Source of the DNA: Natronomonas pharaonis DSM 2160
GTDB lineage: Archaea; Halobacteriota; Halobacteria; Halobacteriales; Haloarculaceae
Direction: 5' to 3'
Length of the DNA: 64,000 nucleotides
Assembly: GCF_000026045.1 (NCBI RefSeq)
Contig: NC_007426.1
Location: forward strand, 2,418,001-2,482,000
The position numbers and the translations under genes are program-made. This document shows positions 35,677 to 46,093 of the stretch, one piece after another. The notes under the pieces were generated by a model. The model saw only the letters and a list, made by a program, of their open reading frames with translations. It was not told the origin of the DNA and did no database searches. Within the stretch, counting starts at the first letter, position 1, and the number at the start of each line of letters is the position of its first letter.

Positions 35677-37212
35677 ATGGCTCGTGCTGGTTCCGGACGA
35701 AACATGAGTAGTAAACCATCCCCACCCGGCGACGCTACCGCACAGCGCTCCGAACGGCCGCCGTCGTCTTCGCTTGTGCCGCGGGTGTCGACGTGGACGG
35801 TCTGGGCCCTGTTTCTCGCGAGCGTCGGGGTCCTCGCGGTCGCAGTGTGGCGCGGCGTCGGCTGGGGTGTCGCCGGTATCCTGCACATTGACGGGCTGAC
35901 AGCGGTGATGTGGGTCGTCGTTACGTTCTTCAGCGGCATCGTTCACAGCTACTCGCGGCGTTACATGGACGGCGACCGCTACATCGACCGGTTCTTCGGC
36001 AAGGTGTTTGCGTTCACCGTCGTCGTCGGCGTGCTCGTCGCGGCCGACCACGTAGCGGTGTTCGTGGCCGCCTGGTTGGCGATGGGACTGGCGATGGCGT
36101 CGCTCATCGGTCACGTCCGCGACTGGGAGCAAGCACGCGCCGCCGGGCGGCTGGCCCGCCGCTACTTCCTTGGCAGCAGTCTGCTGCTGGTTGGGGCGTT
36201 GGCTCCGCTCGTCTGGATGACCGATGCGACCACGATTACGGGACTGCTCGCCGCGTTCGATACCGTCCCCCGGACGGTCGCCATCGCGGCCGCTGGCGGA
36301 ATTTTCCTCGCGGCCATCGTCCAGTCCGCGTTGCTCCCGTTCCACGGGTGGCTGCTCTCCTCGATGACGGCACCGACGCCGGCATCGGCGCTGATGCACG
36401 CCGGATTCGTCAACGCCGGCGGTGTCCTCCTGACGCGGTTTGCGCCCGTCATCGCCGACGAGCTGGTGTTCATGTCGGTCGTCGTCTTGGTCGGTGCCAC
36501 GAGCGCGCTGCTCGGGCAGGCGATGTTGCTCGTTCAGACGGATATAAAACAAAAGCTCGGCAGTTCGACGCTCGCACAGATGGGCTTTATGATTATGCAG
36601 TGTGGGCTGGGCTTTTTCGCCGCGGCAATCGCTCACCTCATTCTCCATGGCTGCTACAAGGCCTACCTGTTTCTCGCCTCCGGGGCGACCGTCGAACAGA
36701 CCACACCGAAAAAAAGCGGCCACGGCCACACCAGCCTCGGATTCCCCAGCCTAGCCATCAGCCTCCTCACGGCCATCGGCGGCGGTGTGCTGTTCATGGC
36801 GCTTACCGGAAAGCTAGCGGGGCTGACCGTAACGCTCGACAGCGGCATCGTCCTGACGCTCGTGGTCGTGCTCACGACGCTGACCGCGGCGCGCGACATC
36901 CTCCATCAAGCGAGTCTGCCGACCGCTGTACGGTTCGTCGGCGTTCCGCTCGTTGTCCTCGTCGCTATCGGCAGCTACGCGGTGCTTTTCAACGCTATCT
37001 CCGGGATGCTCTCGGGCGTGCCGATGACTCAGACCCCAACAGAGCTGACCGCCATTCACTACCTCGTCGTTGCGCTGTTCGCCGGAGCCTATCTCGCCGT
37101 CGAACTCGGCTATCACCGGTCGAGCGAACGGCTCTACGTCGCGCTGCTGAATCTCTCGCAGCCGGACTCGGAGACTGTACTCACCAACAAGGAGGACTAC
37201 CATGACGTCTGA
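35677..37212 (+). CDS. dabB: DabB: proton-conducting membrane subunit of inorganic carbon uptake pump
   Basis: 511 residues with about 13 hydrophobic segments, of the NuoL/MrpA antiporter-like family. Typical features are VQSALLPFHGWLLSSMTAPTPASALMHAG, the DIKQKLGSSTLAQMGFM helix and HLILHGCYKAYLFL with the conserved Lys. In DAB systems this subunit is thought to couple cation flow to CO2 hydration by DabA. It overlaps dabA by 11 nt, so the two are translationally coupled. The start could instead be the ATG at 35704 (MSSKPSPPG). It is separated from all Nuo genes, which argues against a complex I subunit. Confidence 0.88.
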   Translation: MARAGSGRNMSSKPSPPGDATAQRSERPPSSSLVPRVSTWTVWALFLASVGVLAVAVWRGVGWGVAGILHIDGLTAVMWVVVTFFSGIVHSYSRRYMDGDRYIDRFFGKVFAFTVVVGVLVAADHVAVFVAAWLAMGLAMASLIGHVRDWEQARAAGRLARRYFLGSSLLLVGALAPLVWMTDATTITGLLAAFDTVPRTVAIAAAGGIFLAAIVQSALLPFHGWLLSSMTAPTPASALMHAGFVNAGGVLLTRFAPVIADELVFMSVVVLVGATSALLGQAMLLVQTDIKQKLGSSTLAQMGFMIMQCGLGFFAAAIAHLILHGCYKAYLFLASGATVEQTTPKKSGHGHTSLGFPSLAISLLTAIGGGVLFMALTGKLAGLTVTLDSGIVLTLVVVLTTLTAARDILHQASLPTAVRFVGVPLVVLVAIGSYAVLFNAISGMLSGVPMTQTPTELTAIHYLVVALFAGAYLAVELGYHRSSERLYVALLNLSQPDSETVLTNKEDYHDV

Positions 37213-39601
37213 ATCACCGACCAACTACGACGGTATTGACTCGCGCATCGACACCGTGGCCGACAGGGTCGGCTCCGTGTGGCCGCTGCACTCGTTTGTC
37301 ACGGCGAACCCCCTCTCGGGGTTCGAAGGCAGTCCGTTCGAGGATGCGGTCGCCGAAGGCGAACGGCTCTTCGGCGGCCGCGGCTATCCGCGTGCGGACA
37401 TCTTCCGTCGAGCGTGGGAGGATGGCCGCATCGACGACGACGCGCTCCGGACGGAGTTAGAGCGCCGCGGCATCGAGCGCGACCCCGAGACGCTGCTCGA
37501 AGCGATGGAAACGGCGGAGACGAAACGCGACGACGACCCCGACGACGCGACGGCGGCGGTCGACCGTGTGCTCTCGAAATGGCTCGCCGCGTATCTCGAC
37601 CAGGGACAGGCACCCTGGCCGATGCCGAACCGCGAGGAGGGCTTCTATTCGGCCTGGCGTGCGGTCGCGCCCTACGACAGCGATGTTCCCGGTTGCGACG
37701 ACACCGAAGACGTGCCCGCGACGGCCACCGGCGCCGTAGAGACGGTGCTCGATGCGTACCCCCGTCGCCGATGGGACAGCATCATCGAACACCACCTCGC
37801 CGCGCTGCCCGGCTGGACCGGGTTCATCAAACAGCGAGCCGACGACGAGTTCGACCCCTGGCAGTCCGAATACCCAATCACGCTGACGGAGTATCTCGGG
37901 GTCCGGCTGACGCTCGTCGACCTGCTGGATGCGCCGGTAGCGCCCGAAACTGACGCCGACGCCGGTGACGAGACGACCGCCGTGCGCGAAGCCTGGCTGT
38001 CTGCCTGGGAGCAGAGCTACCGAGAGCACCTGCTCGAAGACGTTGACGACGACGTCACCGAATCGTCCCACGGTAACGGCAAGCGTCCGGCCGCACAGCT
38101 CGTGTTCTGCATCGACACGCGCTCGGAGATAATCCGCCGCCACATCGAACAGCAGGGACCGTACGAGACACACGGCTACGCGGGCTTTTTCGGGGTTCCC
38201 ATGCGACACGAGGCGTACGGCTCGGACGTGACGACCGAGGCCTGCCCGCCGATTGTCGAACCGGAGCATATCATCGCCGACCGGCCGGACGCCCACCACG
38301 CCGAACAGGAGACGGCGCACAACCGGTGGCACGGGCTGGTGAGCGCGGCCCGGAAACACTTCAAGCGGCTCAAGACCAACCCCGTCGCCGCGTTCCCGTT
38401 CGTCGAGGGCGCAGGCAGCGCCTACGGGTCGGCAATGGCGCTTCGGACGCTGCTGCCGTCCGCCGTCTACAAACTCGGCAGCACCGTCGACGAGCACGTT
38501 CCGAGCAGCCACGAGTTCTGTAGCCCGACGCTCGACCGCCCACGGATGACCCACGAAGAAAAAGTCGAGTACGCACAGACGGCGTTCGAGCTCATGGGCT
38601 GGACGGAGTTTGCCCGCCTTGTCGTCTTCACGGGCCACACGAGCCACACGACGAACAACCCGTTCGATTCGAGCCTCCAGTGTGGGGCGTGTGCCGGAAA
38701 TCCCGGTGGTCCGAACGCCAGAGTGCTCGCCAAAATCTGCAACGACGAGGCGGTCAAAGACGACCTCCGCGAGCGAGGGGTCGATATCCCCGACGACACC
38801 GTCTTCGTCGGCGCAGAGCACAACACGACAACCGACGAGATTACCCTGTTCGACGGGGAGGTGCCCAAGAGCCACCACGCGGACGTGGCAGCGCTACGCG
38901 ATTCGCTCGAACAGGCACGCGCCGGAGCGGCCGCCGAACGCAGCGAAGCGCTGAACGGGGCCGACCCCGACAAGGGCGTCAGCGAGACAGCGAGCCGCGC
39001 TGCCGACTGGGCACAGACCCGTCCCGAATGGGGGCTGGCCGGAAACGCCTCGTTTGTCATCGGCCCGCGCGAGTTGACCGCCGACAGCGACCTCGACGGG
39101 CGTGCGTTCCTCCACTCCTACGACTGGACGACTGACCCGGACGGGGACGCACTCGAGCTGATTATGCTCGGACCGCTCGTCGTGACGCAGTGGATTAACA
39201 ACCAGTACTACTTCGCGACGGTCGACAACCGCGTCTACGGGAGCGGCTCGAAGGTCACACAGAACCCGGTCGGCAACATCGGCGTCGTCCAGGGCAACGG
39301 CGGCGACCTGATGATGGGGCTGCCGCTCCAGTCGCTCATGTCGGACGACGATTCGCCGTACCACCAGCCGCTCCGGTTGACAGCCGTCATCCACGCCTCC
39401 GTCGAGAACGTGACAGACATCCTGCGCGAGCACGGCCACGTCAGGCGGCTCGTAGACAACGGCTGGGTCGGAAACCTGACCGTCGTCGACCCGACCCGCG
39501 ATAACGCCGCCTTCGACTACGTCGGCGGACTTGAGTGGGAGCCATCGGTACAGCAGGACGCGTCGTCTGAGCGGGTTGCTGCGCCCGCAGCGTCGGACTG
39601 A
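37202..39601 (+). CDS. dabA: DabA: DUF2309 zinc subunit of inorganic carbon uptake pump
   Basis: 799 residues, UPF0753/DUF2309. The beta-carbonic-anhydrase-like zinc site is intact: Cys303 and Asp305 in QLVFCIDTRSEIIRRH, and His478 and Cys493 in FTGHTSHTTNNP...LQCGACAGN. The N-terminal WPLHSFVTANPLSGFE is a family hallmark. DabA on the membrane converts CO2 to bicarbonate in one direction, driven through DabB, so carbon is trapped inside. The pair flanked by two tnpB elements looks like an accessory acquisition. What haloarchaea use the bicarbonate for (carboxylations, anaplerosis, pH or CO2 balance) is not shown. Confidence 0.92.
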   Translation: MTSESPTNYDGIDSRIDTVADRVGSVWPLHSFVTANPLSGFEGSPFEDAVAEGERLFGGRGYPRADIFRRAWEDGRIDDDALRTELERRGIERDPETLLEAMETAETKRDDDPDDATAAVDRVLSKWLAAYLDQGQAPWPMPNREEGFYSAWRAVAPYDSDVPGCDDTEDVPATATGAVETVLDAYPRRRWDSIIEHHLAALPGWTGFIKQRADDEFDPWQSEYPITLTEYLGVRLTLVDLLDAPVAPETDADAGDETTAVREAWLSAWEQSYREHLLEDVDDDVTESSHGNGKRPAAQLVFCIDTRSEIIRRHIEQQGPYETHGYAGFFGVPMRHEAYGSDVTTEACPPIVEPEHIIADRPDAHHAEQETAHNRWHGLVSAARKHFKRLKTNPVAAFPFVEGAGSAYGSAMALRTLLPSAVYKLGSTVDEHVPSSHEFCSPTLDRPRMTHEEKVEYAQTAFELMGWTEFARLVVFTGHTSHTTNNPFDSSLQCGACAGNPGGPNARVLAKICNDEAVKDDLRERGVDIPDDTVFVGAEHNTTTDEITLFDGEVPKSHHADVAALRDSLEQARAGAAAERSEALNGADPDKGVSETASRAADWAQTRPEWGLAGNASFVIGPRELTADSDLDGRAFLHSYDWTTDPDGDALELIMLGPLVVTQWINNQYYFATVDNRVYGSGSKVTQNPVGNIGVVQGNGGDLMMGLPLQSLMSDDDSPYHQPLRLTAVIHASVENVTDILREHGHVRRLVDNGWVGNLTVVDPTRDNAAFDYVGGLEWEPSVQQDASSERVAAPAASD

Positions 39602-39869: not shown

Positions 39870-41147
39870 ATGGAGGTGCGGCGCACTGTTCCAGTCAAAC
39901 TCGACTTGGACAGCGACGACGCCGCGCTTCTCCGCGAAACCGTTGGCGAGTTTTTGTGGGCCGCGAACTACGTTGTTGACCACGCTTGGCAGGGCGAATA
40001 CAAGACGACCAGCAAGGCCCAGTTGCAGGAGGAAACCTACGACGAGGTACGCGAACAGACGCGGTTACACGCGAATCTCGTCCAGAACGCTCGCAACAAG
40101 GCCGCCGACGCCGTACAGGGGGCCGTCGCTCGCTGGAAGCAAGGCGAGTACGCAGGAAAGCCACACTTCTCGCAACCGACTGTCGTCTACGACAAGCGGT
40201 GTGCGACCTTCCACGACGAGTCCGTGTCGCTGGCAACCGTTGATGGGCGTATCGAAGTCGAGTACGTCCTACCAGACGGCGACCGCGATACACCTCACAG
40301 CCGGTATCTCGACAACGACGACTACGAGGTGACGGGCGCGGAACTCCACAACAAGGACGGCGAGTGGTTCCTTCATCTCCGCACAAAGGCGGAGATGGAG
40401 TCGGACACGCCGGAACAGGCAACGACCGGGCACAGCACAGTCCTCGGCGTTGACCTCGGCGTGAACCAACTCGCCGTCACTTCGACAGGGAGGTTCTGGA
40501 GTGGTCACGAGTTCGACCACTGGCGACGGGAGTACGAAAAGCGGCGGGCGTCACTCCAGCAGTGTGGGTCGCGCCACGCCCACGAGAACATCCAGTCTAT
40601 CGGTCGCACAGAGACGGGTCGGTTCAAGATGATGCTCCACCGGATTGCGAACGGCATCATCGAGGAAGCCGTCGAGAACGATTGTACGGTCATCGCCTTC
40701 GAGGAGTTGACCGGCATCCGCGACCGGCTCTCCGGTGCCTCGTGGGGACACAAGTGGGCCTTCGAGCGGTTGTACGAGTACGTCGAATACAAATCCGAAC
40801 TCTACGGTATCGACGTGGAGCAGGTGGACCCGGAGAATACGTCACGCCGTTGCTCACACTGTGGGTTCACCCACCCTGACAACCGCGACGGCGAGGGTTT
40901 CGAGTGTCTGAAATGCGGCTACGAGAACCACGCCGACTACAACGCGGCGAAAAATATAGGCTTGCGGTATCTCCGCCGTAACCAAACTGGGGACGGCGGA
41001 GGCGCACCCGTAGGCGTGCGCTTGAATCGCGGGATGGTGAACGCGAATGGAGTGTATGAACCTCCTGCCGGGGAGTCCGGCCAGAGCGGGAGTCCACGCG
41101 AAAGCCCCACCCTCAACGAAGCGAACGGCGAAGCCGTGAGCGAGTAG
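39870..41147 (+). CDS. tnpB: TnpB RNA-guided nuclease, second family member
   Basis: 425 residues. The RuvC triad is complete: Asp195 (GVDLGVNQL), Glu278/279 ([11 protein letters not shown]) and Asp356 (HADYNAAKN). The zinc ribbon cysteines are C328/C331 (CSHCG) and C346/C349 (CLKCG). The N-terminus [13 protein letters not shown] is typical. The C-terminal tail (about 365-425), rich in Gly/Pro/Ser, is encoded by the right-end RNA scaffold and ends VSE. It appears intact. It shares little with the first TnpB beyond the catalytic motifs. Confidence 0.92.
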
Positions 41148-41162
41148 GGTGGGGTAGTTTAC
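41102..41162 (+). ncRNA. Right-end hairpin / candidate reRNA 3' scaffold of the second TnpB
   Basis: CCCCACCCT (41105-41113) pairs perfectly with AGGGTGGGG (41146-41154), with an inner GAACGGCGAAGCCGT hairpin. The tnpB stop lies in the distal strand of the stem. The predicted guide begins at 41163 and would be about 16-20 nt of the adjoining host gene end. Confidence 0.5.
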
Positions 41163-42292
41163 TCGGCAAAATAACCGAGTGTTCGCAGTTCCGCACGCGA
41201 GCCCTCGCTGGAGCCCGTTTCGTCGGCATCGAGCGCATAAAGTGTGGAATCGCCGCTCCCGACGTAGACGGTCCCATCAGCTACCGTCGGTGACGACTGC
41301 ACCGCGCCTCCGGTTTCGAACGTCCACCGTTCGGACCCATCCGAAGCAGCAACTGCGTAGAGGTTGGCGTCGTCGCTGCCGACATAAACCGTCTCACCGG
41401 CCACTGTCGGCGACGAGTTGACCTCGCCCCCAGTTGGGAACCGCCATTGTTCGCTACCGTCTTCGGTAGCGACCGCATAGAGAGCAGCGTCTTTGCTGCC
41501 TATCCAGAGTGTTTCTTCAAGCACCGTCGGCGACGACCAGATGCTGTCGCCCGTCTCAAACTGCCACTGTTCGACCCCGTCTGTGGTGTCGATGGCATAG
41601 ATGTTGGCGTCGTAACTGCCGACATACACGGTGCCGTCAGCAACCGTCGGCGAAGAGTAGACACGACCCTCAGTGTCGAACTGCCACCGGTCGGTGCCGC
41701 TATCGGCATCAAGCGCATAGACGGTCCCATCAGTACTCCCAACATAGACCGTGCCGTCGACGACAGCGGGTGAGGAAACGATGCCGTCTCCAGTTTCGAA
41801 CCGCCACTGTTCGGCTCCGGTTTCGGCGTTGAGGGCGTACATTGTCCCGTCCGTGCTCCCGACGTAGACGGTGCCGTCGGCTACTGCCGGCGAGGCTGTC
41901 ACCCAGTCAGTAGTCTCGAACCGCCACTCGTCTCTCGCCCCGGGGCTTGAAAACAGCCCGTAAATGGCGGTATCGGTGCTCCCGACATAGAGTCCACCGT
42001 CGGCACCTAGCGCCGGTGATGAAAAGACACCAGCCTTCGTATGTAGCCTAGCTGTTGTGCGTCGTGTGCCGTCGCTTGTCGACACACTGTGGACGGTACT
42101 GTCGTCACTACCGACATACACCGTACCGTCGCCGACGGTCGGCGATGAAACGATACGGCCGGTCGTTTCGAACGCCCACACAACGCGACTCGGTAGTACG
42201 TCGTCACGGTGTGCGATACCGAGCCCGGCACCGACGCCAATGGCGAACGAGCCGCCAGCAAGCAGGAACGATCTACGGGAGGGCGTATCCAT
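41159..42292 (-). CDS. Tat-exported PQQ-repeat beta-propeller protein
   Basis: 377 residues. A twin-arginine signal (SRRSFLLAGGSFAIGVGAGLG) is followed by about eight repeats of roughly 38 residues with the core SSPTVADGTVYVGS.D..LYAL, W.FETG. This is the PQQ/BamB-like propeller pattern. No cofactor residues are evident, so it is more likely a scaffold or binding protein than a dehydrogenase. The stop codon TAA is formed by the right tip of the tnpB element, so the last residues (LRTLGYFAE) may be a truncated end. Confidence 0.85.
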   Translation of the reverse strand: MDTPSRRSFLLAGGSFAIGVGAGLGIAHRDDVLPSRVVWAFETTGRIVSSPTVGDGTVYVGSDDSTVHSVSTSDGTRRTTARLHTKAGVFSSPALGADGGLYVGSTDTAIYGLFSSPGARDEWRFETTDWVTASPAVADGTVYVGSTDGTMYALNAETGAEQWRFETGDGIVSSPAVVDGTVYVGSTDGTVYALDADSGTDRWQFDTEGRVYSSPTVADGTVYVGSYDANIYAIDTTDGVEQWQFETGDSIWSSPTVLEETLWIGSKDAALYAVATEDGSEQWRFPTGGEVNSSPTVAGETVYVGSDDANLYAVAASDGSERWTFETGGAVQSSPTVADGTVYVGSGDSTLYALDADETGSSEGSRAELRTLGYFAE

Positions 42293-42743: not shown

Positions 42744-43664
42744 CTACCCATCAAGCGACGTCAGTGAGTCGAGGTCGGGGACGGATTTGGCGGCGTCTTT
42801 TATTTGTTCCATCCGCTCGGTGTGTTTTTCGGCGGCGAAGGCCTCGAGCTCCTCGGGCGGAATACCGACATCGTCGAAGGATTCGTCGCCGACATCTGTC
42901 GTGATGTCATCGACGAGCGGTAGCAGCTCTCCGACGATGTCATCGAGCAGTTGCGGGTCGACCTTGCCGTCGCCGACGAGTGCTTTCAGCTTGGCCATCC
43001 CGAAGCCGACGTGGCGGCCCTCATCTTGCCGAATCTTCGTGAACCCATCACACAGCCCCGGCAGATGCGGTAGTTCCGGGTAGCTGTCGGCGGAATACGA
43101 CTGTTGCATCCCGTAGTAACCGGTCTGGGCGAGAATCCCCTCGATGACGAGATGGTAATGGCAGTACGCCTTGGCGAACTGTTCGGCCGTCGGAGCCGCG
43201 AGCAACCGCTCCATCGCTTCCTCGTTGCGGTCGAAGAGTTCCTCGTAGGCGTCGTTGAACCACGTCTCGTCGGTGGGCGAAGACGGGTCGAGACCGAGTG
43301 CGTCCTCGACGGGGTGGATGACCTCCCGCCAGTACCGGTCGAAGAAGTCCGTGTGCTTTGCCTCCTCGTATATCTGAGTCGTGACGAACATCTGGTCGTC
43401 GATACTGCCGAGTGCCGTCGCCAGCGGCGCGAGGTCCTCAGTCACCGCCTGCTCGCCCGCGCCAAAGCGGGCAACGCCGGAACGAAGCCCATCGAGGTAC
43501 GTCTCGGGGGTGTCAGTCGAATCAAGAAACGCTTTCAGGTTCTCGCGGTCGGTGTCCAGTTCGATATCGTGGGGGTCCCAGTGTCGCTCGACGGCGTTCC
43601 GGTAATACCGCATCCCACGGGACTCCCGGTCGAGCGGAAGTTGTCGCGTGCTATCGAGGTCCAT
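42744..43664 (-). CDS. R2-like ligand-binding oxidase (R2lox), ferritin-like
   Basis: 306 residues. All six metal ligands of R2lox are present: Glu71, Glu101, His104, Glu175, Glu215 and His218. The residues that form the unusual Val-Tyr ether cross-link in Mycobacterium R2lox also match by spacing: Val74 (three after Glu71) and Tyr170 (five before Glu175). This points to a Mn/Fe oxidase and not to a ribonucleotide reductase R2, as such genes are often labelled. No large reductase subunit is nearby. The physiological substrate is unknown. A TATA-like AATATAATT lies about 30 nt upstream. Confidence 0.86.
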   Translation of the reverse strand: MDLDSTRQLPLDRESRGMRYYRNAVERHWDPHDIELDTDRENLKAFLDSTDTPETYLDGLRSGVARFGAGEQAVTEDLAPLATALGSIDDQMFVTTQIYEEAKHTDFFDRYWREVIHPVEDALGLDPSSPTDETWFNDAYEELFDRNEEAMERLLAAPTAEQFAKAYCHYHLVIEGILAQTGYYGMQQSYSADSYPELPHLPGLCDGFTKIRQDEGRHVGFGMAKLKALVGDGKVDPQLLDDIVGELLPLVDDITTDVGDESFDDVGIPPEELEAFAAEKHTERMEQIKDAAKSVPDLDSLTSLDG

Positions 43665-43717: not shown

Positions 43718-44449
43718 TCAGAACGTGTACGCCAGCATGACCTCGTCGACGTGTTCGTCGCCGATGGTGTAGTGGTTCTTGCGGACACCTTCTGTCTCCC
43801 AGCCGCGTTCCTCGAGGAAGGCGATGGCTTCGTCGTTTGTCGTCGGGACGCTGTTGTACACCTTCCGGTAACCGTTAGCCTCGGCCCAATCGAGGGCGCG
43901 TTCGAGTAGCCGAGTGCCGATGCCGTGGCCCTGATGCTCGCCGCGGACGCCGACGGTCAGCTGGGCGGTGCTCTGGAGCTTGTCGAGCTGTGGCAAATCG
44001 AGATGCGACCAGCCGACCACGTCGCCGTCGACGGTCGCGACGAAGAAAACGCGGGATTCAGCCGTGTTGTGTCGGTTGACGGCGTCTTCGTAGAGAAGCT
44101 GTTCAGCGATGGACTCAGCGACGATGTAGGTATCTTCGGCGGTGACATCGCGGATGGTATCGATGAGTCCCTCGAAGTCCGTCTGTTGGGCCGGTCGTAC
44201 CGTGTAATCGATGTCGTCGGTCGAGTACGTCTCGATGGAGCCGACATCGAGGGCCACCTGCAGGGTGCCGCCGTCGTCTTCGAGGTAGCCACGCTCCTGC
44301 AGTTGTTCGAGAGCGTCCTGAAACTCCTCGGCCGGGAGCGATGTCACTTCCCTGACCCGGTGGCGGGCGGCCGTCCCGTGCCGCTCGACGAACCGGTATA
44401 TCTCCTCGCCGGCCTCTGTCTCGAAGGTGGGCTGCTCGGACGTTTCCAT
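43718..44449 (-). CDS. GNAT acetyltransferase with N-terminal winged-helix-like domain
   Basis: 243 residues. Residues about 10-65 (EEIYRFVERHGTAARHRVREV, then LEQLQERGYLEDDGGTL) look like a winged helix. Residues about 80-240 are a GNAT domain with the acetyl-CoA loop VRGEHQGHGIGTRLLERALDWAEANGYRKV and a C-terminal EERGWETEGVRKNHY typical of RimI-like enzymes. It may acetylate a protein or small molecule. The fusion suggests DNA- or protein-binding control. Confidence 0.85.
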   Translation of the reverse strand: METSEQPTFETEAGEEIYRFVERHGTAARHRVREVTSLPAEEFQDALEQLQERGYLEDDGGTLQVALDVGSIETYSTDDIDYTVRPAQQTDFEGLIDTIRDVTAEDTYIVAESIAEQLLYEDAVNRHNTAESRVFFVATVDGDVVGWSHLDLPQLDKLQSTAQLTVGVRGEHQGHGIGTRLLERALDWAEANGYRKVYNSVPTTNDEAIAFLEERGWETEGVRKNHYTIGDEHVDEVMLAYTF

Positions 44450-44491: not shown

Positions 44492-46093
44492 TTACTGATA
44501 GCGCCCCCGGGTTTCGATTTCCCGGAGATGGTCGACAACGGCCCCGTCGCCGGCCGACCGGTAGGCGTCCTCGAAGGCCGTAATTTGTGCCGTGGGGTCG
44601 TCGGCGGTGCCGCCGAGTGCGCCCTCGAAAACGTGGAGGTCCATCGCATAGTCCTCGACGGCGTCGGTGTAGTAACCGAGGCCGAAATCAATGAGGAACG
44701 CACGGTCCTCGCCGACCCGGACGTTCCGCGGTGTCGGGTCGCCGTGGACGAACCCAGCCGCATGGCAGGCGGCGAGATGTCGGCCGACATCCCGGACTGC
44801 CGATTCTGAGAGAGCGGTCTTGAGGTCGGCATCGCCGACGTACTGGAAGACAAGACGGCCCGCGTCCGGGTCGACATCGTAGACGACCGGCGTGGGAACG
44901 CCCTGTCGTCTGGCTTCGCTTGTGAGCCGGGCCTCCGAGCGGGTCCGCTGGCTCCGAAGGCGCGAATCGAGGACAGGATGCCGGTAGGCTTTCTCTAGCC
45001 GGCGCTTCGTGACGCGGCCGCCGTCGGCATCGATGTCGACGACAGCCTCTGCGCCCTGGCGGCGTTCGTCGGTCGGGACAGGGCGGGCGACGGCCTCGTC
45101 GTCACGCCAGGATACCGGCACCTCGTCGGGGCGGAAATCCGGGCGAACGCCCGATTCGGGGATAGAGATGATGTCGCCGGCCTCGTACATCTTCGCCCCG
45201 AGGACCGCTATCATCCCGGCGTTGTCACGGAGGAACCGCGGTTCAGGGACGTAGATGGCAGCCCCACGGTTCTCACACATCTGTGTCAGCATCTCCTGGA
45301 GCCGGCTGTTTTGTGCGACGCCGCCCCCGACGACGAGTTCGTCAGCGCCGGTCAGCGACAGCGCCCGCTCGCTGACCTCGGCGAGCATGGCGAAAATCGT
45401 CTCCTGGAGCCCACAACAGACGTCCGCAACGGGGGTTCCGTCGTCGTAGGCCTGCTTCGCAGCCGACATGATACCCGAAAACGAGAAGTCCATCCCCTTG
45501 ACGACGTAGGGGAGTTCGACGTAGTCGCCGTCCTCGGCGTGGGACTCGACCTTCGGACCGCCGGGGTGGCTCCAGCCGACGTGGCGGGTGAACTTGTCGA
45601 TGGCGTTGCCGACGCCGGTGTCCATCGTCTCGCCGAGCACGCGATAGCGGCCGTTGTGGTAGCCAAGTACGTGCGCGTTTGCGCCCGAAGCGTTCAAACA
45701 GACCGGCGATTCGAAGCCGGAGCGATGGCGGCCGATTTCGAGATGGGCGACCATGTGGTTGACGCCGACGAGCGGACACGACAGCGTGCCGGCCAGCGAC
45801 CGGGCTGCGGTGCCGGCGATGCGGAGACACGGGCCAAGTCCCGGGCCTCGTGAGAAGGCGACGGCGTCGATGGCGTCGGCGGGGTCGCCCCAGTTCGATT
45901 CGACGTGGTCGAGGGCAGCCTCGACGACCGACGGCACGGCCTCGCGCATGTGTTCGGCCGCCTCGCGCGGGTGAATGCCGCCGCTCTCGGGCACGTAAGC
46001 GTCGGAGTCGATGAAAACAGCGTCAGTCTCGGCATCGAAGACGGCCGCACTAGCACACCAGGCCGTCCCTTCGATACCGAGAACGCGGGTCAC
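44492..46093 (-). CDS. kae1-bud32: KEOPS complex Kae1-Bud32 fusion
   Basis: 533 residues, GTG start. Kae1 (about 1-325) is the threonylcarbamoyltransferase that makes t6A37 on tRNA. Metal ligands His113 and His117 lie in NHMVAHLEIGRH, with the GGGVAQNSRL and LRDNAGMIA segments. Bud32 (about 340-533) is the small kinase/ATPase partner with HGD (450-452), Asn457 and DFG (469-471). The fusion is usual in Euryarchaeota. S27ae and S24e genes follow upstream on the same strand, so tRNA and ribosome genes are grouped. Confidence 0.96.
   Translation of the reverse strand: MTRVLGIEGTAWCASAAVFDAETDAVFIDSDAYVPESGGIHPREAAEHMREAVPSVVEAALDHVESNWGDPADAIDAVAFSRGPGLGPCLRIAGTAARSLAGTLSCPLVGVNHMVAHLEIGRHRSGFESPVCLNASGANAHVLGYHNGRYRVLGETMDTGVGNAIDKFTRHVGWSHPGGPKVESHAEDGDYVELPYVVKGMDFSFSGIMSAAKQAYDDGTPVADVCCGLQETIFAMLAEVSERALSLTGADELVVGGGVAQNSRLQEMLTQMCENRGAAIYVPEPRFLRDNAGMIAVLGAKMYEAGDIISIPESGVRPDFRPDEVPVSWRDDEAVARPVPTDERRQGAEAVVDIDADGGRVTKRRLEKAYRHPVLDSRLRSQRTRSEARLTSEARRQGVPTPVVYDVDPDAGRLVFQYVGDADLKTALSESAVRDVGRHLAACHAAGFVHGDPTPRNVRVGEDRAFLIDFGLGYYTDAVEDYAMDLHVFEGALGGTADDPTAQITAFEDAYRSAGDGAVVDHLREIETRGRYQ

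Follow-up and report, generated by a model that had tools for sequence, protein, structure and literature searches.

An R2lox-type oxidase gene of Natronomonas pharaonis, its haloarchaeal relatives and their gene neighbourhoods

The locus and the residues of its oxidase

The window, as we call the whole stretch of 64,000 nucleotides analysed here (C1:2418001-2482000 of the Natronomonas pharaonis DSM 2160 genome), encodes an R2lox-type oxidase in the following surroundings.

35677-39601, plus strand: gene for an NADH dehydrogenase/Mrp-antiporter-type protein followed by DabA (PF10070, E=5e-270), which we take to be a likely inorganic-carbon uptake pair
39870-41147, plus strand: OrfB/TnpB gene of the IS605 type, flanked by DabA and by the R2lox region
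41159..42292, minus strand: gene for a PQQ-type beta-propeller repeat protein, downstream neighbour of R2lox
42744..43664, minus strand: R2lox-type oxidase gene, 306 amino acids (P0001), a single open frame
43718..44449, minus strand: gene for a GNAT acetyltransferase of 243 amino acids, directly upstream of R2lox and co-directional with it, with a gap of 53 bp
44492-46093, minus strand: TsaD/Kae1 gene whose C-terminal part resembles a kinase, presumably a fusion of the Kae1-Bud32 type; it lies upstream of GNAT

The frame at 42744-43664 lies exactly where an earlier note on this DNA had placed it, and it is read from the minus strand, the plus strand being interrupted by stops in that frame. 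The GNAT gene adjoins R2lox in five of the nine loci of the nearest clade (the window, L064, L066, L067, and L069), one predicted gene lies between the two in L065, and no GNAT gene was found near R2lox in L063, L068, and L070; a functional link between the two genes is only suggested. Nothing beyond adjacency ties the beta-propeller gene to R2lox function, and no lipid-metabolism marker is found near the window R2lox.

The metal ligands of the window protein, E71, E101, H104, E175, E215, and H218, align with those of R2loxI of Geobacillus kaustophilus (PDB entry 4hr0), and the cross-link pair is represented by V74 and Y170, correctly numbered in the earlier note. The claim that these residues occupy the exact relative positions seen in a known R2lox holds inside the motifs (E71-V74, E101-H104, Y170-E175, E215-H218) and fails between them, where the alignment to 4hr0 is gapped. 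The six ligands are also present in R2, the beta subunit of ribonucleotide reductase (RNR), and are thus not specific to R2lox. The tunnel or cavity residues are A179 and Y183, F108 stands where R2 has its radical tyrosine, and W29 and D214 are also among the residues noted. Not a single Tyr occurs in the 88 residues past the last ligand, H218, and a C-terminal Tyr is thus missing, unlike in the true R2 of the same organism, which has one Tyr near its C-terminal end. Six residues (Gly, Pro, Lys, Ala, Tyr, and Arg) are described as found in R2lox only (PMC3824934), and all six, placed by their distance to the ligands, are present in the window protein (G70, P80, K103, A179, Y183, and R217).

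Among the NCBIfam profiles the protein matches five families, all of them R2lox models (best E=4.5e-44), with all five scores below the curated cut-offs (the best 151 bits versus 194), which are annotation thresholds carrying no structural or chemical definition. The Pfam profile Ribonuc_red_sm gives 31.5 bits, below its cut-off of 33.6, and the organism's own R2 scores 192.9. Of the 16 PDB sequences listed at E<=1, the first 15 are R2lox, with 4hr0 at E=5.5e-27, and none is a true R2. As judged at the sequence level, the matches to 4hr0 and to the NCBIfam model are far beyond chance. The last of the 16 is an aldehyde deformylating oxygenase (5uxg, E=0.00027), which forms alkanes and shares the fold superfamily. 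This weak match could be read as pointing to the same activity in the window protein, to which we nevertheless assign almost no probability, as the fifteen R2lox sequences score far better in the same search, and the Mt and Se R2lox lacked such activity in tests cited by PMC10867098.

Conservation was followed in an alignment of 152 distinct rows (E<1e-11), 148 archaeal, from haloarchaea and a few metagenome-assembled genomes named only as Euryarchaeota, and four bacterial; outside this limit are the class Ic-like R2 proteins of loci L110-L113 and L029, a low-scoring open reading frame with almost none of the R2lox residues, and the organism's own R2 was not matched by that search. Position 74 is Val in 147 of the 147 archaeal rows that have a letter there (150 of 151 over all rows), and at position 170 all 148 archaeal rows with a letter have Tyr (151 of 152 over all rows). 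Since the pair is kept throughout the archaeal lineage, a chance match of Val74/Tyr170 is rejected. Val at 74 is not diagnostic by itself, being also present in the organism's own true R2, from which the cross-link Tyr is absent. Tyr183 (Y175 in the Geobacillus protein) is conserved in 145 of the 152 rows, the window included. The single exception to both cross-link columns is L126:2878-3867, on a plasmid of Streptomyces sp. Mg1, an R2lox-like protein labelled as RNR beta in which Gly and Phe replace the Val and the Tyr, and so a naturally occurring relative that lacks the pair.

Relation to ribonucleotide reductases and to characterised R2lox

Natronomonas pharaonis possesses a separate R2 gene (G000 C2:68690-69511), positioned between nrdR and R1 on a 131-kb contig in the order nrdR, R2, R1, along with a further large-subunit match on the chromosome; for this strain the literature describes a plasmid PL131 carrying nrdR-nrdB-nrdA and a chromosomal nrdJ (PMC3019208). 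Four PF02867 matches are found in the genome, at C1:1.60 Mb and on C2, and none in the window, in agreement with the remark in the earlier note that no alpha subunit is nearby. The organism's own R2 belongs to the same superfamily and has the same ligand set as the window protein, but, unlike it, possesses the radical Tyr, a Phe in place of the cross-link Tyr, and the C-terminal Tyr. The haloarchaeal class Ic-like R2 proteins (L110-L113), whose genes adjoin a shared large open reading frame, resemble the window protein in having Phe at the radical site, but they differ from it in having Thr and Phe for the Val/Tyr pair and Phe at the positions of both A179 and Y183. One of them, L110, scores 513 bits on an NCBIfam RNR-beta model (cut-off 309), and such haloarchaeal sequences have been grouped with the Chlamydia R2c (PMC3824934).

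A phylogenetic tree (LG+C20) was built from 53 hand-chosen rows, and the branch parting 48 R2lox-type rows from five R2 rows has a support of 99/97. The 31 rows of the archaeal main group form one side of a branch (96/87), within which the nearest kin of the window protein are G002 and G010, of the same genus, and G156. The Gk, Mt, and Se references, two from Sulfolobus, and two plasmid R2lox form one group (100/99). Eight distant haloarchaeal R2lox-like rows and R2loxII of Geobacillus (L122) fall outside the reference group, the support being weaker, at 89/80, for the set that they make up with L126; the long branches of the own R2, L126, L122, and L098 call for caution in reading the tree, and the joining of L122 with the distant haloarchaeal rows is a doubtful long-branch join. 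The distant rows come from a second set of haloarchaeal R2lox-like proteins (L099, L100, L101, L104-L109), approximately 24-35% identical and also keeping the Val and the Tyr, whose position in the tree is unsure.

An AlphaFold2 model of the window protein (42 rows; mean pLDDT 91.1, pTM 0.88) was compared with known structures. Foldseek ranks R2lox entries at all of the positions 1-34, followed by the Chlamydia NrdB, and the VIA-align Z values among the entries listed are 30.1-33.9 for 27 R2lox and at most 27.5 for R2. As modelled, the fold is thus that of the R2/R2lox superfamily, clearly nearer to R2lox. The best Z (33.9) belongs to the R2lox of Mycobacterium tuberculosis (3ee4/4ac8), with 33.6 as the best value for that of Saccharopolyspora (7qbp); both share the fold, the cross-link residues, and the ligands with the window protein, at approximately 30% and 33% identity, respectively, but in the tree the window protein does not branch from within them. 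The Geobacillus R2loxI (4hr0; Z 32.1, rmsd 2.6 over 270 residues) possesses the six ligands, the V72/Y162 pair, A171, and Y175, like the window protein, and is about 35% identical to it over 225 residues, while falling outside the archaeal main group.

With profiles, tree, fold, and residues all backing it, the R2lox identity proposed in the earlier note is almost certainly correct. The note had named as the finding that would overturn it a closer match to true R2, with the radical Tyr and the electron-transfer residues, and the comparison with the organism's own R2 came out negative in this regard. The alternative is that the protein is a genuine beta subunit of a class I RNR (Ia, Ib, or Ic) serving a distant alpha subunit, an idea that could draw on the weak Ribonuc_red_sm match and on the database name of the relatives. 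It is opposed by the Phe at the radical site and the Tyr-free 88 residues past the last ligand, by Ala179 and Tyr183, positions taken in the R2 rows by Leu or Phe and by Phe, respectively, by the separate R2 between nrdR and R1, by the tree, which separates the window protein from both the own R2 and the class Ic-like rows (99/97), and by the lower fold Z to R2 entries. Residues, tree, fold, and the own R2/R1 pair lead us to reject it, class Ic included, as having practically no chance of being true.

The R2lox identity is also less of a novelty than the earlier note implied, as an R2lox of this organism is already in print: in 2013 a Natronomonas pharaonis sequence, from one of its two R2lox genes, was placed in the R2lox clade (PMC3824934). 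It has also been argued that a Sulfolobus protein labelled NrdB is an R2lox with no part in ribonucleotide reduction, and NrdB-like genes in some Halobacteria were pointed out (PMC5134839). The identity is therefore known, and the window gene joins a recognised family.

Database names have followed unevenly. Among the 33 database records matched, 18 are from haloarchaeal plasmids, and 14 of these have an RNR-type name, three are called 'hypothetical protein', and one is unannotated, consistent with what the earlier note said of the labelling of such genes; the nine records of Mycobacterium, Rhodococcus, and Geobacillus are all named R2lox. Six more archaeal R2lox-type proteins (L062, L250, L124, L104, L107, and L076) score below all five NCBIfam R2lox cut-offs, with L104, L107, and L076 also giving weak RNR-beta matches of at most 25 bits. 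The haloarchaeal naming may thus result from scores that fall below these cut-offs. The label 'ribonucleotide reductase beta subunit' is wrong on many such genes, and it misleads work on the synthesis of DNA precursors in archaea.

Distribution, gene neighbourhoods, and an acyl-carrier-protein cassette

Matches at E<=0.001 are present in 31 of 60 genomes, own included, a count that takes in weak matches (class Ic-like R2 in G025, G031, and G040, a distant R2lox only in G012, and a doubtful match in G053). Among 391 genomes of Halobacteria, all at least 90% complete, 130 have matches at E<=1e-10; at most five candidates were scored per genome in this survey, so copy numbers from it are lower bounds. 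Up to five R2lox genes are found per genome (G010, G016, and G018), and the own genome has two. The second of these (L062; G000 C1:2156453-2157403) is 51% identical to the window R2lox. It adjoins an isocitrate lyase family gene and a gene of the HpcH/HpaI type, which we take to be malate-synthase-like (L062:3139-6904, G000 C1:2153638-2157403), and an HVO_0513/HTH_10 regulator lies on its other side. Isocitrate lyase and malate-synthase-like markers are both near R2lox in L085, L086, and L088 as well, and in Halostagnicola larsenii R2lox lies within a beta-oxidation cluster.

These associations were counted with a set of lipid markers (acyl-CoA dehydrogenase, enoyl-CoA hydratase, hydroxyacyl-CoA dehydrogenase, thiolase, acyl-CoA ligase, isocitrate lyase, malate synthase, and ketosynthase). 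Such markers are near 20 of 58 R2lox loci versus three of 40 control stretches (p=0.0014, a flattering value, as R2lox loci already viewed had supplied the markers), and in the other 38 loci none of them was found. The 58 loci take in nine of the distant set, all without a marker (20/49 when these are set aside), and leave out the same-genus relative L005, a short stretch; the controls are hand-spread positions in 20 of the same genomes, with two per genome, and the R2lox loci are mutually related. Taken alone, beta-oxidation genes are near 11/58 R2lox loci and 2/40 controls (p=0.04), acyl-CoA ligase near 7/58 and 1/40 (p=0.09), and isocitrate lyase or malate synthase near 5/58 and 0/40 (p=0.07). 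Genes were picked by a score of codon position and acidity that missed real genes, for example the R2lox of L063, L084, L090, L098, and L106. In a named set, whose genomes overlap the unnamed one, 29 of the 70 loci of at least 10 kb (from 80) have a lipid marker. A measure independent of the marker choice is the number of acyl-CoA dehydrogenase matches per genome, with a median of 11 in the 26 genomes with a strong R2lox match versus 5.5 in the 34 others, and of 13 versus 7 within the same genus only (n=13 and 7, p=0.02), genome size and relatedness being confounders. The malate-synthase-like gene gives no clear split by strong R2lox match (19/26 versus 16/34 genomes, p=0.06).

A redox-partner gene beside haloarchaeal R2lox was also considered and is not supported. 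The FAD oxidoreductase genes near L087 and L092 are followed by a DUF7545 gene, in L092 also by a RibD-type gene, and by no ferredoxin, unlike in the Rhodococcus locus L125, with its oxidoreductase and ferredoxin genes downstream of R2lox. A gene for a 2Fe-2S protein precedes R2lox only in L240/L260 and L250.

One offshoot of the family is the first gene of a cassette with the order R2lox, zinc-type oxidoreductase, acyl carrier protein, ketosynthase, holo-ACP synthase, malonyltransferase, and FabG, as in plasmid pHME505 of Haloferax mediterranei and in Natronorubrum bangense, where R2lox is called 'hypothetical protein', the annotation that it has in all three plasmid records. The run (L124:6001-11623, L250:6328-12615, L240, L251, L261-L264, and L267) is complete in nine of 11 distinct loci (13 examined, two of them duplicates), and in L251 the R2lox gene is split. 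The cassette ketosynthase is found in none of the 40 control stretches and none of 130 other loci, and close relatives of the cassette R2lox (E<=1e-95) are present in eight of the 391 genomes. The ten intact cassette R2lox keep the Val and the Tyr and have Phe for the cavity Tyr183, and in eight of the ten A179 is replaced by Gly (eight rows were aligned, with duplicates taken once, and L250 and L266 were read by eye). In the Geobacillus protein, Y175F and A171F have been made as laboratory mutants (PDB titles). The cassettes of pHME505 and Natronorubrum bangense, whose gene tables are incomplete, have no annotated dehydratase, and a geranylgeranyl reductase family gene is found near two of the cassettes, L250 and L240. 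It has been suggested that archaea make fatty acids without an acyl carrier protein (PMC3533463), and no mention of the cassette came up in a text search of the literature or in passages of PMC3533463 and PMC9385802, which is no proof of absence.

We establish here the family, the fold, the residues, and the paralogy of the window protein, and the association of its relatives with lipid genes. Beyond the known identity, what is new here is a deep lineage of archaeal R2lox in which a genome may have as many as five genes; the retention of the Val/Tyr pair in all archaeal rows with letters, the scanned members all being below the NCBI cut-offs; and the frequent position of the relatives, the window copy not among them, near genes of lipid metabolism, together with the acyl-carrier-protein offshoot with Phe for the cavity Tyr.

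Proposed function of the window oxidase

Characterised R2lox proteins activate O2 at a Mn/Fe or Fe/Fe site, form a one-time Val-Tyr ether, and possess a hydrophobic tunnel leading to the metals (PMC6399176, PMC6060897). We infer the metal content, the cross-link, the O2 chemistry, and the substrate of the window protein as follows. By analogy, site 1 of the protein would be occupied by Mn and site 2 by Fe (or both by Fe), O2 would be activated, and the first turnover would join the C-beta of Val74 to the oxygen of Tyr170, a cross-link that very probably forms. A long aliphatic substrate, held in a tunnel with Ala179 and Tyr183 in its lining, would then undergo two-electron oxidation by hydroxylation or desaturation, and the product would most likely enter fatty-acyl breakdown (beta-oxidation and the glyoxylate cycle). 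The two-electron oxidation of an aliphatic chain at Mn/Fe or Fe/Fe is the best overall explanation and, in our view, a probable one; an aliphatic or acyl substrate appears likely, and for a role of the window copy in catabolism rather than biosynthesis the odds appear about even. The turnover of an aliphatic chain is proposed because of the Geobacillus R2loxI and the gene neighbourhoods: a 2024 study claims degradation of alkanes by crude GkR2loxI lysate, and it mentions, with reference to Kumar et al. 2020, that a gene for haloarchaeal R2lox is up on hexadecane (PMC10867098). For Natronomonas pharaonis, growth on long-chain fatty acids and the formation of wax esters from them are reported (PMC11948995), which offers a plausible place for aliphatic oxidation. 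A haloarchaeon growing on fatty acids, with two R2lox genes and a separate RNR, makes the function directly testable by deletion strains.

A chemistry ending with self-modification has also to be weighed, in which the protein would be a sink or a sensor of O2 or of redox stress without an external substrate. Formation of the cross-link is, after all, the reaction demonstrated with purified R2lox (PMC6399176, PMC6060897), and regulators of the HTH_10 type are present in the same stretch as many paralogs (families c4, 10 loci, and c8, 6 loci, by Pfam, with one member of each family searched). We consider it very unlikely, as the tunnel residues are conserved, and the presence of up to five genes per genome with differing neighbours suggests different substrates.

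Within the oxidation of an aliphatic chain, desaturation of an acyl chain by a radical at Tyr183, taking two hydrogens from the bound chain, has been proposed and modelled for R2lox (PMC4118035), and the conservation of this Tyr in nearly all rows (145/152) would agree with it. On the other hand, GkR2loxI is reported to act as a hydroxylase, in crude lysate (PMC10867098), and Phe replaces Tyr183 in the cassette offshoot, so that the Tyr is not needed by the whole lineage; an acyl desaturase of this kind appears unlikely. As a tentative possibility, the haloarchaeal R2lox may form a family of acyl-chain oxidases for several substrates, in which copies next to genes of beta-oxidation and the glyoxylate cycle would serve breakdown. 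The window copy would be of this breakdown type, and the cassette offshoot, with Phe for the cavity Tyr and mostly Gly for the tunnel Ala, would be a biosynthetic oxidase acting on a carrier-bound chain. If so, the offshoot works in a domain of life in which fatty-acid synthesis, where present at all, is believed to do without a carrier protein.

Archaeal membranes are built of isoprenoids, and because they lack fatty acids a different substrate has to be considered for the same R2lox mechanism, an isoprenoid (a membrane-lipid chain, a quinone, or a carotenoid) or another non-fatty compound, in which case the enzyme would tailor lipids rather than degrade them. To our knowledge, R2lox long had no known natural substrate, which leaves room for such a role, as do the lack of fatty-acid genes near the window copy and the geranylgeranyl reductase family gene near cassettes L250 and L240. 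It is still a rather doubtful proposition, as part of the relatives' neighbourhoods hold acyl-CoA or acyl-carrier-protein genes, and Natronomonas pharaonis itself uses fatty acids (PMC11948995).

One further haloarchaeal R2lox, L098:6030-6911, keeps the Val and the Tyr and has Phe at the positions of both A179 and Y183, and it is thus a naturally occurring equivalent of A171F, the laboratory mutant of the Geobacillus protein in which the tunnel is blocked.
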